Below are positions 1,785 through 8,101 of a stretch of 37,268 bases of DNA, one piece after another. Made by a program: the position numbers and the translations under genes. How positions within the stretch are numbered: the first letter of the stretch is position 1; every line of letters starts with the position of its first letter. Source of the stretch: Hyphomicrobiales bacterium (GTDB lineage Bacteria; Pseudomonadota; Alphaproteobacteria; Rhizobiales; Rhizobiaceae); contig JAFKJU010000043.1 in the NCBI GenBank assembly GCA_017305935.1, positions 1 through 37,268 on the forward strand. Reading direction: 5' to 3'. The notes beneath the pieces were generated by a model that was not told where the DNA came from, searched no databases, and worked only from the letters and a program-made list of their open reading frames with translations.

Positions 1785-1973
1785 TTAGGCAGCCATCGCG
1801 CTTTCGCTGCGCATCAGCTGCGCGAAAGCGTCTTTGGCGTTCGCGATCTGGTCGCGCAGATAGCCAAGGCGCAGGAAGTCTTCCTCGGTTTGCGCGCCGG
1901 TATCGATGTAATCGCGATACATCTGACGAGCGATGGTGTTCGGCGTTGGGGTCTTTTGATTCTGCTTGCTCAT
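1785..1973 (-). CDS. Hypothetical protein (62 aa), first gene of leftward operon
   Basis: The ATG at 1973 is preceded by AGGAGA seven bases upstream. The 62-residue protein is mostly helical and charged: MSKQNQKTPTPNTIARQM, then YIDTGAQTEEDFLRLGYLRD and AKDAFAQLMRSESAMAA. No family is recognised; small helical proteins of this kind are common as first early genes in alphaproteobacterial phages. It is the first gene after the leftward promoter at 2035-2063, so it should be among the first genes expressed when repression is lifted. Confidence 0.65.
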   Translation of the reverse strand: MSKQNQKTPTPNTIARQMYRDYIDTGAQTEEDFLRLGYLRDQIANAKDAFAQLMRSESAMAA

Positions 1974-2158: not shown

Positions 2159-2467
2159 ATGGCGTCGCCTGTCCCTGATGAGCTGCTCGGAGATGCAAAC
2201 ATGATCAATCTTGAGTGCAGCTATTGCGGTCGTACGCGCTGGCGTAAGCCGTCCGAGCTCGCGCGCCGCGGCGTGACGCTGCATACACCCCTCTACGATC
2301 TGGGCCGACGACTAAGCTGCCCGACCTGCCAAGATGAGGGTCGGCCCGGGAAAACGATATCGGTGCAGGCCTATTATGATCGCGATTTTGATCGAGCTCG
2401 GATCGAAGCCGCCGTGCTTAGAAACCAAATAGTTCTTTCAGCGGAATTACCCGAAATATCCGCTTAA
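2159..2467 (+). CDS. Zinc-ribbon hypothetical protein (102 aa)
   Basis: I chose the ATG at 2159 because AAAGGAGG lies seven bases upstream; a start at 2084 would ignore this strong RBS. The protein has two CxxC knuckles (CSYCGR near residue 20 and CPTCQD near residue 60), which would bind one zinc ion, with a basic stretch between them (TRWRKPSELARRG). It is probably a small nucleic-acid-binding or adaptor protein. It lies in the immunity region and its last 50 bases overlap, tail to tail, the end of the repressor gene. No precise family is assigned. Confidence 0.75.
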   Translation: MASPVPDELLGDANMINLECSYCGRTRWRKPSELARRGVTLHTPLYDLGRRLSCPTCQDEGRPGKTISVQAYYDRDFDRARIEAAVLRNQIVLSAELPEISA

Positions 2468-3110
2468 TCGCATAGCGATCAAAGGAGATTTCTTTCGGCG
2501 GGTTGTACTGCTCGACAATAATTTCTTTGGCAGTCCGGCGCTTGAGCTTCTTGATATATGACTTTCCGGCTTGGCTTTCTTCCTCGCCGAATAGCTCAAT
2601 AACTACGTGATCGCCTGGAACTGGCTCAACTCCCCCAGCATAGATCATTTCTCCGGGATCATAGCGTGGGACCATGCTATCGCTGAGAACATTGAGAGCA
2701 AACACGTTTCGCAAATGGGCAATGCCTGGTGGTCGCCTGACAAACCCGGCAACCTCTCCATTAAAACTGAAATCGCCATCGTCACCACCGTATGTCACGC
2801 CAAGTAGCTGAACATCCATCGGGCCGATCGGAAGCGGCGCGGGGCCGGTAACAATTTCCGCGTCACCAAGGCCGTCGTCGTCGAGATAAACGAGCTCGCC
2901 CTTGGCAAGCGCCGTGGAATCCACTCGTAGAACTTCCGCGGCCTTAACGAGGTTCTCCATGCTCGGAAGGTTTTTCCCGCCTTCCCACATACCTACCGCG
3001 GCGATGTCGATGTTAAGCGGTTCAGCAATGTTGCGCTGGACAAGACCTCGACGCTTTCGCGCGGTGCGAATTGCGGTGCCTACAGCGAGTGCCAAGGGTG
3101 ATTTAGCCAT
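2418..3110 (-). CDS. CI-like phage repressor (HTH + S24 peptidase domain)
   Basis: The 230-residue protein has an N-terminal helix-turn-helix (about residues 8-70, with TARKRRGLVQRNIAEPLNI and EVLRVDSTAL) and a C-terminal LexA/CI-type S24 domain (about 98-230). The nucleophile Ser145 (SDSMVPRYDPGE) and general base Lys187 (SYIKKLKR) are present. At the position where CI has Ala-Gly, 38 residues before the serine, this protein has Tyr107-Gly108, so self-cleavage may be altered. I chose the start MAKSPLALAV; it has no Shine-Dalgarno and lies close behind a -10-like TATAAG, so the mRNA may be leaderless. It should maintain lysogeny by repressing the early promoters. Confidence 0.85.
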   Translation of the reverse strand: MAKSPLALAVGTAIRTARKRRGLVQRNIAEPLNIDIAAVGMWEGGKNLPSMENLVKAAEVLRVDSTALAKGELVYLDDDGLGDAEIVTGPAPLPIGPMDVQLLGVTYGGDDGDFSFNGEVAGFVRRPPGIAHLRNVFALNVLSDSMVPRYDPGEMIYAGGVEPVPGDHVVIELFGEEESQAGKSYIKKLKRRTAKEIIVEQYNPPKEISFDRYAIKRIFRVIPLKELFGF

Positions 3111-3192: not shown

Positions 3193-3408
3193 ATGGACAA
3201 TAACCCTTCTCCGCTTGATGTTGCGATTGAACGTGTTGGCAGTGCTAGCGAGCTCGCGCGCCGTATTGGCATCACAGCGGCGGCTGTTTTGCAGTGGCCG
3301 CAGGTGCCACCCAAGCGGGTGTTGGCGGTCGAAGAAGTCAGTGGGGTTTCGCGTCATATCCTGCGCCCGGACCTGTACGGCCCGCCTCCGACTGAGACTG
3401 CAGAATGA
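3193..3408 (+). CDS. Cro/YdaS-like DNA-binding protein (71 aa)
   Basis: The 71 residues match the YdaS/Cro type of short helix-turn-helix proteins: SPLDVAIERVGSASELARRIG, then ITAAAVLQWPQVPPKRVLAVE, then SGVSRHILRPDLYG. The family occurs divergently to CI-like repressors in many proteobacterial prophages, where it blocks repressor synthesis and allows lytic growth. Here it is divergent from the S24 repressor across an 82-base control region. The ATG has no RBS and sits five bases after the -10, suggesting leaderless translation. It is followed directly by the two-hairpin RNA. Confidence 0.85.
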   Translation: MDNNPSPLDVAIERVGSASELARRIGITAAAVLQWPQVPPKRVLAVEEVSGVSRHILRPDLYGPPPTETAE

Positions 3409-3433
3409 GCCTCGTCCAACGTTCCTCCCCCAT

Positions 3434-3504
3434 TGCCGTGCAAACCTCCTCCCGTTTGCGGCATAGCCCCGTCGCGTCACTCCTCCTCCCATGCGCGACG
3501 GGGC
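3434..3504 (+). ncRNA. Cuckoo/CcsR-type small RNA (two CCUCCUCCC hairpin loops)
   Basis: Two adjacent hairpins carry the same loop motif CCTCCTCCC (3445-3453 and 3482-3490). Hairpin 1 has the stem GCAAAC/GTTTGC (3440-3445 with 3454-3459), extended by TGCC/GGCA across a two-base bulge. Hairpin 2 has a perfect 11-bp stem (3466-3476 with 3494-3504). This is the defining layout of the alphaproteobacterial cuckoo family, with two to four hairpins each bearing the motif in its loop; it includes the stress-induced CcsR RNAs. The loops are complementary to Shine-Dalgarno sequences. It starts about 25 bases after the cro stop, so it may be processed from the cro 3' UTR. Confidence 0.8.
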
Positions 3505-3644
3505 GCTCTCTTTCGATCCGGTCTGGCGCGAAGACGTATGCGCGACAGGCCGTGCGCCGGGGCCGGTCATGGCGTTATGGCCTGCAGGACCGCCCCGGCG
3601 CTGCCCTTGTTCCCCTCTGCGGAGCGTCAGGCGCCGCAGCGCCT

Positions 3645-3690
3645 CGGCCGGGACAGACTTTGTTTGGCGGACCGTCCCGGCCGATTTTTT
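3645..3690 (+). terminator. Rho-independent terminator after the cro-sRNA unit
   Basis: CGGCCGGGAC (3645-3654) pairs perfectly with GTCCCGGCCG (3674-3683), followed by A and six T (3685-3690). It would end the transcript that carries cro and the CCUCCUCCC RNA, before the early operon begins at 3824. Confidence 0.85.
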
Positions 3691-3753
3691 CGTCTCGATA
3701 TGCATGCGGTCCCCCGTGATCTGACGGACTGACCTTCACACACATCACCATTG

Positions 3754-3795
3754 TCCCGCGACGGGAAACGCAGTGCGTTTGTCCCGCGCCGGGAC
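3754..3795 (+). repeat. Three tandem short hairpins in the early-operon leader
   Basis: TCCCG-CGA-CGGGA (3754-3766), AAACGC-AGT-GCGTTT (3766-3780) and GTCCCG-CGC-CGGGAC (3781-3795) follow each other without gaps. The first and third are near-copies. They lie about 30 bases upstream of the first early gene. Confidence 0.6.
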
Positions 3796-3823
3796 GCGCT
3801 TACCCTTTTGAAGGACAAAGAGA

Positions 3824-4325
3824 ATGCGTCTCACTGAAGCATGGATGTACCGGGTCAAGGCCGCGCAGCGCGACCTGATCGAAGCGTGCGGCACGCTGCG
3901 CCGTATCGAGGAAAAGCATAGCTACGGCAAAACCACAGTGGGGCGTTGGAGCGATCCCAACGATCCGACCTTCATGCCCCCTGCAGGCCGTCGTCGCTCT
4001 GCAGGCCGATTGCGGCATCCCCTATATCACGCAAGTTTTGGCGGAGCTGCAAGGTCGCCGTTTGACCGATCCCGATGTCGAACGGCAAGCGGAGATCGGC
4101 GTCATGGCTAGCCATGCCGAAGTGATGCGTCTGGTCGGCGAGCTGGCCAATAGCGTGGCGCTGGCGATCGCCGACGGCCGGGTGACGCCGGCTGAAGCCC
4201 ATAGCGTCGACCGCATCGCGGCCGGCTTGCAGCAGGTTACCAGCGATCTGCGCGGTTCTCTTGCCTCCATCAAGGCGCTGGGCGGCGTCACCGCCGGCCT
4301 CGCGACCGGACACGGGGAGGATTGA
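3824..4325 (+). pseudogene. CII-position regulator-like gene, frameshifted
   Basis: Two frames make one protein. The first starts MRLTEAWMYRVKAAQRDLIE and contains STVGRW-like HTH features (GKTTVGRWSDPNDPTFMP). The second continues LQAVVALQADCGIPYITQVL and ends at 4325. They join if one C is removed from the five-C run at 3977-3981. The rebuilt product is about 166 residues: an N-terminal HTH-like part, the conserved DPTFMPLQAVVALQ segment and a helical C-terminus. Position just downstream of cro suggests a CII-like activator or phage CP76-type regulator, but I am not sure of the family. A sequencing error, real inactivation or +1 recoding are all possible. Confidence 0.6.
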
Positions 4326-4328
4326 GCG

Positions 4329-5171
4329 ATGGACGCGGCCGGCGCATCTTCTCCCGAACTTCGCCCGATCAACGGCCTCGACCTTCCGGACGTCGCGCCG
4401 GCGGCTCTGCCCGATTGGCTGCCGGAAGTGCGCCAGGTCGATCCGGTCACGCTCTTCGTCGACGAAAAATACCAGCGCGGCCTGTCGGATCGCTCCATGC
4501 GGCTGATCCGCAAGATCGTGTCGCAGTGGTCCTGGCTGGCGTTCAAGCCGCCGATCGTCGTCGATGTCGAGGGCAAGCTGCATGTGATCGATGGACAGCA
4601 CACGGCCATCGGCGCGGTGACGCATGGCGGGATCGGAACCATGCCGGTTCTCGTCGTTCGAGCCAAAGCGGTGGGTGAGCGGGCAAGCGCGTTCGTGCGC
4701 CACAATCGCGATCGCATCCAGGTGACTGCGACGCAGCTGCATGCAGCGCTTGTGGCGGCTGGTGACGAGGACGCGCTCGATGTTGCGGCCATCTGTGAAC
4801 GGGCCGGCATTCGCCTCTTGAAAAACCCGCCGCCCATGGCGCGCTACAAGGCGCGCGACTGCGTGGCGATCAGCGCGATCATGTCCCTGAAAAACCGCCG
4901 CCACGTGAAGGGTGCGCGGGAGGTAATGGAGGTGTGCGCCAAGACGGGCGCTGCGCCCGTCACCGCCAATCTGATCCGGGCCGTCGAGCGGCTTTTGTTC
5001 GACAAGGAATACAAGGGCGAAATCGACGCCGATCGCATCGTCGCCCTCTACATCGCCATGCCCGACTATCTGGAGACCGAGGCGCGCCGCTTTGCGGCCG
5101 AACGAAAGGCGCCCATCTGGCGGGCGCTGGCCTCGGTCATTTTCATGAACCGGAGGAAGGCGCGTGGATAG
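4329..5171 (+). CDS. ParB/Srx-fold domain protein
   Basis: The 280-residue protein has an N-terminal ParB-like nuclease fold: DPVTLFVDEKYQRGLSDRS at about 37-55, W(S)WLAFKPPIVVDVEG, and the hallmark VIDGQHTAIGA at about 86-96. The remainder is helical and may bind DNA or a partner. Proteins of this type (DUF6551-like) occur early in alphaproteobacterial phages and plasmids; their biochemical role is not settled (DNA binding, NTP-dependent clamp or nuclease-like). It starts four bases after the preceding stop and overlaps the next gene by eight bases, placing it in the early operon. Confidence 0.75.
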   Translation: MDAAGASSPELRPINGLDLPDVAPAALPDWLPEVRQVDPVTLFVDEKYQRGLSDRSMRLIRKIVSQWSWLAFKPPIVVDVEGKLHVIDGQHTAIGAVTHGGIGTMPVLVVRAKAVGERASAFVRHNRDRIQVTATQLHAALVAAGDEDALDVAAICERAGIRLLKNPPPMARYKARDCVAISAIMSLKNRRHVKGAREVMEVCAKTGAAPVTANLIRAVERLLFDKEYKGEIDADRIVALYIAMPDYLETEARRFAAERKAPIWRALASVIFMNRRKARG

Positions 5172-6764: not shown

Positions 6765-8101
6765 GCGAGCCTCAAAGCAAGACGGCCGTGGCGCGGCCGA
6801 TCGCCAGCATCATCACCGGCAATCGCCTGCGGCGCGTGGATGAGGCCAAGGTGGCATCGTTCATGGATTCGATCGGGCGCGATGGCCTGCGCATGCCGAT
6901 TACCGTCTTCGGTGACGAGACGGCCCCGACCGCGATGTTGAGCGCCGGCGGTCATCGGCTCGAAGCCTGCCGGCGGCTGGGGCGCGAAACCATCCTGTGC
7001 TTCCATGAGGCGGGCGATGCCTATGACTGCGCGCTTTGGGAAATCGACGAGAACCTGATCCGCTCCGATCTGTCGGCGTCGGAACGGGCGCTGTTTACGG
7101 CGCGGCGCAAGGAAATCTATCTCGTCAAGTTCCCGGAAACGGCTGTCGGGGCAAACCAGCATTCGAGGGTTCGCAAAAACTGCGAAGGCTCGGCGCCTGC
7201 GCGTTTCAGCGCCGCCACGGCCGAGGCGACCGGGCAGAAAGAGCGCACCGTGCAGCTGGATGCCGAGCGCGGCGCGAAGATTTCGCAGGCCGCCCTGCAG
7301 ATGCTGGCTGGCTCGCGCCATGACAAGGGCGTGACGCTGGATCATCTCAAGAAACTGGCGACGCCGGAAGCGCAGGAAGGCTATGCACGCCAGCTGCTCG
7401 CCGGCGATCGCGCCGTGGCGGCGGAAAGCAAGGTGATCCGCACCGCGACCATGCGCCGCTCGCGCGATGTGCGGCTGGGGCTTCTGAACGTGATCGCCGA
7501 TCGCGGAATCCGGGTCGCGGGCGAGCTGCCGCGTGCGGCCTATCCGATCCTCTATGCCGATCCGCCATGGCAACAGGAAGCCTGGAGCGACGAAACCGGC
7601 CAGGACAAGGGCCTGAAATATCCCTCCATGCCGCTCGACGACATCAAGGCGCTGTGCGCCGGCGATCGCAGCCCGGCGACCAGTTCGGCCGAATGTTTTC
7701 TTTGGGTGCCGGCGAACCGGCTGCATCACGGCATCGACGTGCTGACCGCCTGGGGCTTCGAATACATCTCCGGCATGGTCTGGGACAAGATCGACATCGG
7801 CATGGGCCGGCATGTGCGCGACCGGCACGAACATCTGCTGATCGGCAAGCGCGGCAAGGTCTCGATCGCGCCTTTGCCCGGCGACAACCCGCCCTCGCTC
7901 TATGCCGAGCGCAAGACCGCGCATAGCCGCAAGCCGGCATGGTTTGCCGAGCAGATCGACCGGCAATGGCCGGAGCTTCGCAAACTGGAACTGTTCAACC
8001 GCCGCGAAAGCCTGGTCGAAGGCGACGTGCGGCTGAACGGCAAGTGGGATTTCTGGGGGTTCGAAGCTGCCGGCGCAGCGAATGACGAGGTGGCGGCATG
8101 A
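6761..8101 (+). CDS. ParB-domain / MT-A70 adenine DNA methyltransferase fusion
   Basis: The 446-residue protein joins an N-terminal ParB-like domain (about 10-110; SAGGHRLEACRRLG, YDCALWEIDENLIRSDLSASE) to a C-terminal MT-A70-type N6-adenine methyltransferase with the catalytic DPPW motif near residue 266 (YPILYADPPWQQEAW). The MT-A70 SAM-fold blocks WGFEYISGMVWDK and HEHLLIGKRG follow. The ParB part probably guides the enzyme along DNA; the MTase would methylate adenines in phage DNA, protecting it from host restriction. The start is chosen at the ATGA overlap; a longer upstream frame would run over the previous gene. No cognate nuclease is adjacent. Confidence 0.9.
   Translation: MSEPQSKTAVARPIASIITGNRLRRVDEAKVASFMDSIGRDGLRMPITVFGDETAPTAMLSAGGHRLEACRRLGRETILCFHEAGDAYDCALWEIDENLIRSDLSASERALFTARRKEIYLVKFPETAVGANQHSRVRKNCEGSAPARFSAATAEATGQKERTVQLDAERGAKISQAALQMLAGSRHDKGVTLDHLKKLATPEAQEGYARQLLAGDRAVAAESKVIRTATMRRSRDVRLGLLNVIADRGIRVAGELPRAAYPILYADPPWQQEAWSDETGQDKGLKYPSMPLDDIKALCAGDRSPATSSAECFLWVPANRLHHGIDVLTAWGFEYISGMVWDKIDIGMGRHVRDRHEHLLIGKRGKVSIAPLPGDNPPSLYAERKTAHSRKPAWFAEQIDRQWPELRKLELFNRRESLVEGDVRLNGKWDFWGFEAAGAANDEVAA

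Follow-up and report, generated by a model that had tools for sequence, protein, structure and literature searches.

Cuckoo-like tandem hairpins with predicted anti-Shine-Dalgarno loops next to the cro gene of a rhizobial prophage

The early region of the prophage

The window (the whole stretch of DNA analysed, 37,268 nucleotides) belongs to a 99.99%-complete Rhizobiaceae genome of 6.55 Mb. The contig is a tailed prophage with a sheath, encoding a large terminase, a portal, a head protease, a major head protein, a tail sheath and a tape measure. Its early genes comprise a CI-like repressor on the minus strand, a cro-like gene, a cII-like gene, a ParB-like gene and DNA methyltransferases. The features of the early region are as follows.

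1785-1973, minus strand: first small ORF of the left operon; neither it nor its leader carries anti-Shine-Dalgarno (anti-SD) loops
2418-3110, minus strand: CI-like repressor gene, divergent from cro, with an HTH and an S24 match just under the cut-off
3193-3408, plus strand: cro-like gene, 71 aa; Pfam YdaS_toxin (2.8e-15) and P22_Cro (3.6e-7), PHROG transcriptional repressor
3405-3719, plus strand: cro-coupled leader ORF, 104 codons; its ATG overlaps the cro stop (ATGA), and the two hairpins and the terminator lie within it; no Pfam match
3434-3463, plus strand: hairpin 1, loop 3446-3453, with CCUCCUCCC at 3445-3453
3466-3504, plus strand: hairpin 2, loop 3478-3492, with CCUCCUCCC at 3482-3490
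3644-3690, plus strand: intrinsic-terminator-like stem followed by a T run (predicted fold), at the tR1 position
3705-3719, plus strand: CGPP-stop codons, kept in 62 of 107 sister clusters
3824-4325, plus strand: cII-like (CP76) gene, split over two frames (3824-4111 and 4038-4325)
4315-4331, plus strand: GGGAGGA Shine-Dalgarno sequence and ATG of the gene after cII, a possible target and the only exact such site in the window

The cII-like gene, broken here, is intact at about 163 codons in sister loci; the break may be due to an error in sequencing or to genuine decay. By eye, TCCCG..CGGGA-type inverted repeats were noticed between the CGPP-stop and cII in several phages, at about 3750-3800 on the plus strand of the window and in sister loci, and are likely operators or leader structure. 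Three records, from two phages, were the only published ones to match the early region; its named relatives are Sinorhizobium phage phi2LM21 and Rhizobium phage PPF1. The cro-cII sequence is the same in the two sister loci L160 and L394.

Two adjacent hairpins with identical loops follow cro

We found only two exact copies of CCTCCTCCC in the window, at 3445-3453 and 3482-3490, while shuffled windows contained 0.29 copies on average and reached two or more in 4 of 100 shuffles. When the region was folded, both copies fell in hairpin loops, with eight of nine bases unpaired in hairpin 1 and all nine in hairpin 2. Stem 1 is predicted to form by pairing of 3434-3437 and 3440-3445 with 3454-3463, and stem 2 by pairing of 3466-3477 with 3493-3504, the two hairpins being separated by 2 nt. 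The fold of the pair was predicted at -36.9 kcal/mol, with z scores of -5.5 (3409-3515) and -6.7 (3425-3510). In a shuffle test in which the motif was retained and its flanks were shuffled, a loop hairpin at the threshold of -7 kcal/mol or better appeared in 25% and 28% of the shuffles for hairpins 1 and 2, and the real stability was reached in 3.9% and 0.1%, respectively. Hairpin 1 by itself is modest.

The pair starts 25 nt after the cro stop codon (3406-3408), and downstream of it a terminator stem at 3644-3684, followed by ATTTTTT, was predicted at -24.7 kcal/mol. A scan of the window for promoters and terminators, restricted to loops of 3-8, listed nothing, and the terminator at 3644-3690 was missed in part because of this loop limit. 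The promoter scan found no separate promoter just upstream of the hairpins, and no T run was attached to hairpin 2 in the predicted fold. The original prediction had described two adjacent hairpins with identical loops on different stems, 25 bases after cro and ahead of a terminator at 3645-3690; the copies and folds above agree with each of these points, the terminator being real as a predicted fold. What that reading of the region had overlooked is the ORF at 3405-3719, which overlaps the cro stop and runs through the hairpins and the terminator.

Some sister phages carry the hairpins, at either of two early sites

Four cII proteins were aligned to search for relatives, and the loci collected were the best 80 of 90 from viruses and 59 from genomes, or 140 together with the window. 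Eight of them, in which the sequence ahead of cII was shorter than 2300 nt, were left out; the other 132 were grouped into 107 clusters. Hairpins on the sense strand 150-450 nt before cII, that is, after cro, were called right-type, and hairpins on the minus strand 1200-2300 nt before cII, in the left-operon leader, were called left-type. Near-exact loop hairpins (at most one loop mismatch) were right-type in 17 clusters and left-type in 22, and no cluster had both, leaving 68 without a near-exact copy at either place. With exact motifs, the corresponding numbers were 10, 14, 0 and 83. On the wrong strand, the same two places gave 0 (right) and 1 (left) of the 107 clusters. The avoidance of carrying both positions had a one-sided Fisher P of 0.014; a P of 0.001 in two clades chosen after viewing the tree is descriptive only.

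The short core CCTCCC was present on the right in 28 clusters, on the left in 23, at both in one (L362) and at none in 55, with 0 and 5 on the opposite strand. The reversed core CCCTCCT/CTCCTCC, found on the right in 12 and on the left in 21, is no independent control because CTCCTCC lies within CCTCCTCCC; the reversed 6-mer CCCTCC, which is independent, gave 3 right and 5 left. At any position in the whole loci, the real 9-mer was hardly enriched (36 loci on the plus and 53 on the minus strand, versus 26 and 52 for the reversed 9-mer, to which shifted overlapping copies may add). Judged from these counts, only the two early positions are informative, not the whole-locus numbers.

The element is phage-borne, as claimed, and recurs after cro in sister prophages, although sisters that keep cro give a mixed picture, since more clusters carry the hairpins in the left leader instead and most have them at neither place. 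A copy linked to the immunity switch does lie next to cro in the window, but it is neither unique to this phage nor confined to the cro side. In a tree of 106 cII proteins, from which the split gene of the window was left out, the right and left states were clustered yet intermixed, the starred branches forcing at least six changes for each state; the right-type sister L394 of the window was placed in a left-type clade. Phage mosaicism could also have moved the two regions independently, but this would be expected to yield some phages with both positions. One locus of the set, L428, is titled Bacillus subtilis SK6B4, and its cII homologue groups with Bartonella prophages; this record is probably mislabelled or a mixed assembly.

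Seven right-type loci carry two hairpins: the window, L394, L380, L382 and L297, together with L149 and L077, which were taken from the motif scan and lie outside the cII set. Their motifs are spaced 34-39 nt apart, and the joint folds place all 14 of the 14 motifs in hairpin loops, on stems that differ, so the sister comparison did find constant loops with varying stems. Between the window and L394, a compensated base pair in stem 2 can be read from the sequences. A MAFFT alignment of the seven doubles misaligned the stems; individual folds were used for this reason, and no pair counts were taken from the alignment. In phi2LM21, a hairpin after cro holds TTCCTCCC at 7198, but the last three bases of this sequence are paired; PPF1 has one exact copy on the minus strand (record position 42219-42227), a left-type one (copy L306).

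Left-type hairpins are located in the leader ahead of the first ORF, and in many of 19 left-type loci a ribosome-binding site and a small ORF follow shortly after them. A loose promoter pattern, counted without a chance control, matched 46-94 nt before the first near-exact motif in 14 of these loci (TTGAC-type in 13, TTGTC-type in one). By eye, GGGAGG, which is complementary to the loops, occurs downstream of the hairpins in 10 of the 19 leaders, for example in L303, L339, L351, L377 and L387. This hints at pairing in cis for the left-type hairpins and counts against a trans reading.

Two stem-loops near the start of an early transcript might also be an antitermination RNA of the put kind, which would bind RNA polymerase from within the nascent transcript and carry it through terminators. 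According to the available part of PMC9378689, phage HK022 has putL just after P_L and putR about 270 nt after P_R, each of about 70 nt with two stem-loops, and the left- and right-type elements have the same two places and a similar size. However, HK022 has both sites, while none of the 107 clusters here has hairpins with these loops at both, and the left leader of the window has no such loops. A nut or put pair as the first choice was rejected on this ground. In addition, conservation is confined to the loops, the stems being variable, and host trans-acting RNAs have the same loop. A pair of the put kind with different loops is conceivable, since the left leaders of three right-type phages (L380, L382 and L419) contain paired stems that lack these loops. 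On balance, we consider an antitermination RNA quite improbable.

Relationship to cuckoo, ar14 and CcsR RNAs

The cuckoo RNA family ranges from two to four adjacent hairpins. Its members were described as adjacent hairpins with CCUCCUCCC in each loop and highly variable stems (PMC3927594, in the text of its section 2.7; PMC10746234, in its available part), and hairpin number is three or four in two S. meliloti models and two in Rhodobacter RS0680a (PMC3927594, same section). NfeR1 has the same loops and silences mRNAs in trans (available part of PMC10746234), and CcsR1-4 of Rhodobacter sphaeroides are cut from a 3′ UTR, after the small gene ccaF1 (available part of PMC8625941). Measured against the descriptions in section 2.7 of PMC3927594 and in PMC10746234, the phage element has two adjacent hairpins, its CCUCCUCCC is unpaired in both loops of the predicted fold but for one base in hairpin 1, and the structure is kept in the seven right-type doubles while the stem sequence differs.

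No Rfam family matched the window at the curated cut-offs. A covariance search returned CcsR1 (E 1.3e-4) and ar14 (E 9.9e-4) as the best two families for the stretch, both under the cut-off: the pair scored 30.2 bits for ar14 (RF02344; gathering cut-off 58.8) and 27.6 bits for CcsR1 (RF02791; gathering cut-off 65.3). In Rfam, CcsR1 is named for this motif, and the ar14 alignment shows it in both aligned loops. The suggestion of a cuckoo/CcsR-type RNA thus stands as far as the loops, the variable stems and the two-hairpin size are concerned, but the element misses both cut-offs, shows no separate promoter in the scan and lies inside a frame-conserved ORF.

The host chromosome has four loci with three or four such loops in series, all above the ar14 cut-off (91.4-108 bits); the CcsR1 model listed two of these four ar14 copies, at 25.3 and 26.8 bits. 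Two copies (L154 and L155) have a clear T run after the last hairpin, and in the other two (L153 and L156) the T-rich tail is broken. The four-motif copy L155, on contig C97, sits after a DUF1127 gene (Pfam 1.8e-17), like ccaF1-CcsR in Rhodobacter; CcaF1 is a DUF1127 protein.

Viral contigs were scanned for exact motif pairs at a distance of 15-45 nt, and the reversed motif served as the control; each scan gave at least 120 stretches. Neighbouring copies lay in stable hairpin loops in 55 among the 120 stretches listed, versus 2 among the 120 listed for the reversed motif. Host DNA next to prophages probably accounts for part of the 55, which include a group of 13 alike stretches and L141, a match to the host copy L153. 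In other phage contigs the hairpin pairs adjoin unrelated genes. Tandem CCTCCTCCC hairpins were also seen in phage contigs L117, L054, L049, L098, L146, L053 and L065, in differing DNA surroundings (L117 is L054-like), near genes for a GapR-like protein (in L037, of the same group), a helicase and a single-strand annealing protein.

With four ar14 copies in the host and a hairpin 1 that is not very unusual alone, the pair might be an inert piece of host ar14 captured by the phage, or chance C-rich stems. Such an origin sits badly with strand- and position-specific hairpins in 39 of 107 clusters versus one on the wrong strand, with constant loops on unrelated stems and with the excess over the reversed motif in the viral contigs, and we regard it as very improbable. 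Because sister phages carry it at two strand-specific positions with constant loops on differing stems, we read the hairpin pair, from its sequence and predicted fold, as a recurrent phage element of the cuckoo kind.

A cro-coupled leader ORF ends in CGPP-stop

We found a CGPP-stop in the 260 nt ahead of cII in 62 of 107 clusters, whereas none occurred elsewhere in these loci (1.92 Mb, both strands). It occurs in 30 spellings with all three stop codons. Since this pattern admitted synonymous spellings only, the search was redone without that constraint, using a 12-base core with up to 4 mismatches. The best match then fell at this place in 90 of 107 clusters; among these 90, the four third codon positions are variable, the commonest base being present in 61, 39, 46 and 68, while each of the other eight positions is fixed in 80 to 89. 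The leader, at 3405-3719 on the plus strand of the window, with its free third codon positions, is a candidate arrest or leader peptide of the phage.

The frame was tested without drawing on it: among upstream ORFs of 55-160 codons, the one richest in GC at the third position was chosen. Such an ORF was found in 60 of the 62 clusters. It terminates in ATGA in 36 of them, and in 35 of these 36 the ATG shares its frame with the CGPP-stop (one third expected by chance). The automatic choice took another ORF in the window and in some loci; the named cro of the window is in frame. A terminator-like stem lies inside 43 of 57 CGPP-stop ORFs. In 11 right-type clusters with the leader ORF, all 16 of 16 loop motifs fall inside it, in the three frames 10, 5 and 1 times. 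Since the motifs occupy all three frames although the ORF frame is conserved too, the loops appear to be conserved as RNA, and loops as a coding by-product were rejected.

This leader suggests a translated attenuator acting in cis. Ribosomes coupled from cro would translate through the hairpins and the terminator, opening the former and holding off the latter; a stall at the CGPP-stop, about 105 nt before cII, would tune cII and the following genes, and the loops might gate or slow translation. The confinement of the CGPP-stop to the stretch before cII, its codon pattern, the in-frame ATG and the enclosed terminator-like stems all fit, and the C-termini RGPP and RAPP arrest ribosomes (available part of PMC12992588). 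As read from the sequences, the leader ORF makes this a serious rival. Against it, the ORF is independent of the loops: it is present with or without loops after cro, including in left-type phages, and for this reason an attenuator fails to explain the loops and their one-of-two placement. Moreover, left-type hairpins precede the first ORF, and CGPP, the putative stall site here, has 0 occurrences in the available part of PMC12992588. Overall, we judge the attenuator unlikely as the function of the hairpin pair, yet clearly less so than an antitermination RNA.

A possible anti-SD RNA acting in trans

We favour, at about an even chance, a phage-borne anti-SD RNA that would be produced together with the early lytic transcript and would act in trans. 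The element would be carried in the early right transcript, from cro to the tR1-like terminator, within the cro-coupled leader ORF. Upon release of the CI-like repressor, P_R would yield cro and the hairpins together, and two CCUCCUCCC loops would be exposed, either on the short cro transcript itself or on a fragment cleaved from it. By pairing with purine-rich ribosome-binding sites such as GGGAGGA, these loops could reduce the initiation of translation on a set of host mRNAs, perhaps also on phage mRNAs, in the early lytic phase. What we infer here is that the element is transcribed from P_R, is released from a longer RNA and acts in trans on these targets. From the gene order, both placements would share an early transcript under repressor control.

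We prefer the trans-acting RNA because of this common early transcript, because the loop is that of host trans-silencing RNAs (NfeR1), and because the genome has GGGAGGA sites: GGGAGGA-N3-11-ATG occurs 156 times versus 13 for the reversed control, once in the window, ahead of the gene after cII. Early genes of the phages gave no convincing enrichment of extra anti-SD targets (GGAGGAG in the right operon, P 0.048; five other tests above 0.07). The trans reading is weakened because ribosomes translating the frame-conserved ORF would open the hairpins. It is further weakened because the scan found no promoter ahead of the hairpins and hairpin 2 carries no T run, whereas a clear T run closes two or more of the four host copies, and because 68 of 107 clusters lack a near-exact copy at both positions, the Rfam cut-offs are missed and whole-locus counts are near those of the reversed motif.

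A broader picture, which we offer tentatively and hold to be somewhat doubtful, is that many temperate rhizobial phages carry one anti-SD RNA per genome, at the start of the left transcript or after cro, swapped between these places in evolution. After cro it would be overlaid on a translated leader with a new, arrest-like CGPP-stop, and RNA and nascent peptide would jointly control the lysis-lysogeny switch, a host stress-RNA code resetting translation on induction. If this is true, phages themselves employ the alphaproteobacterial anti-SD RNA code, and the immunity region supplies a natural, testable example of a phage RNA in competition with ribosomes for host start sites. For phages whose laboratory hosts are known, direct predictions follow from the CGPP leader and from the placement at one of two positions.

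Comparison with known systems

No phage-borne cuckoo RNA was found in the open-access literature among the top matches of often very long lists; this is not proof of absence, because only top matches were covered and subscription papers lie outside. The available parts of PMC3927594, PMC10746234 and PMC7143759 do not mention one. Judged by sequence, a kind of hairpin previously described as the bacteria's own stress-response RNAs is here phage-borne, beside the lysis-lysogeny switch.

Like the cuckoo family, including ar14/NfeR1 (RF02344), the phage element has adjacent hairpins with the motif in each loop and variable stems. Unlike ar14/NfeR1, it has two hairpins of which neither is a terminator, shows no promoter of its own and lies within a putative phage early transcript and an ORF. 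With CcsR1-4 (RF02791 for CcsR1) it shares two hairpins, the same loops and a place after a small gene (available part of PMC8625941), but the gene upstream is a cro-like phage regulator rather than ccaF1. Its length of about 70 nt, its two stem-loops and its location, either directly behind P_L or one cro length downstream of P_R, recall HK022 putL and putR (available part of PMC9378689); in contrast to these, each phage has one position, and the loops are conserved while the stems vary. The leader, a candidate arrest peptide, resembles the RAPP/RGPP arrest peptides as a small upstream ORF with an xGPP end (available part of PMC12992588); it differs in having Cys for Arg, directly before the stop, in the cro-cII interval of a phage. 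Finally, two E. coli prophage sRNAs are known: svsR, at the 3′ end of cI (PMC12803456), and AgvB, which acts on host regulation (PMC4104026). They belong to other hosts, and the available parts of these two papers describe no anti-SD multi-hairpin design for them; like both, the hairpin pair would be a regulatory RNA carried by a phage.
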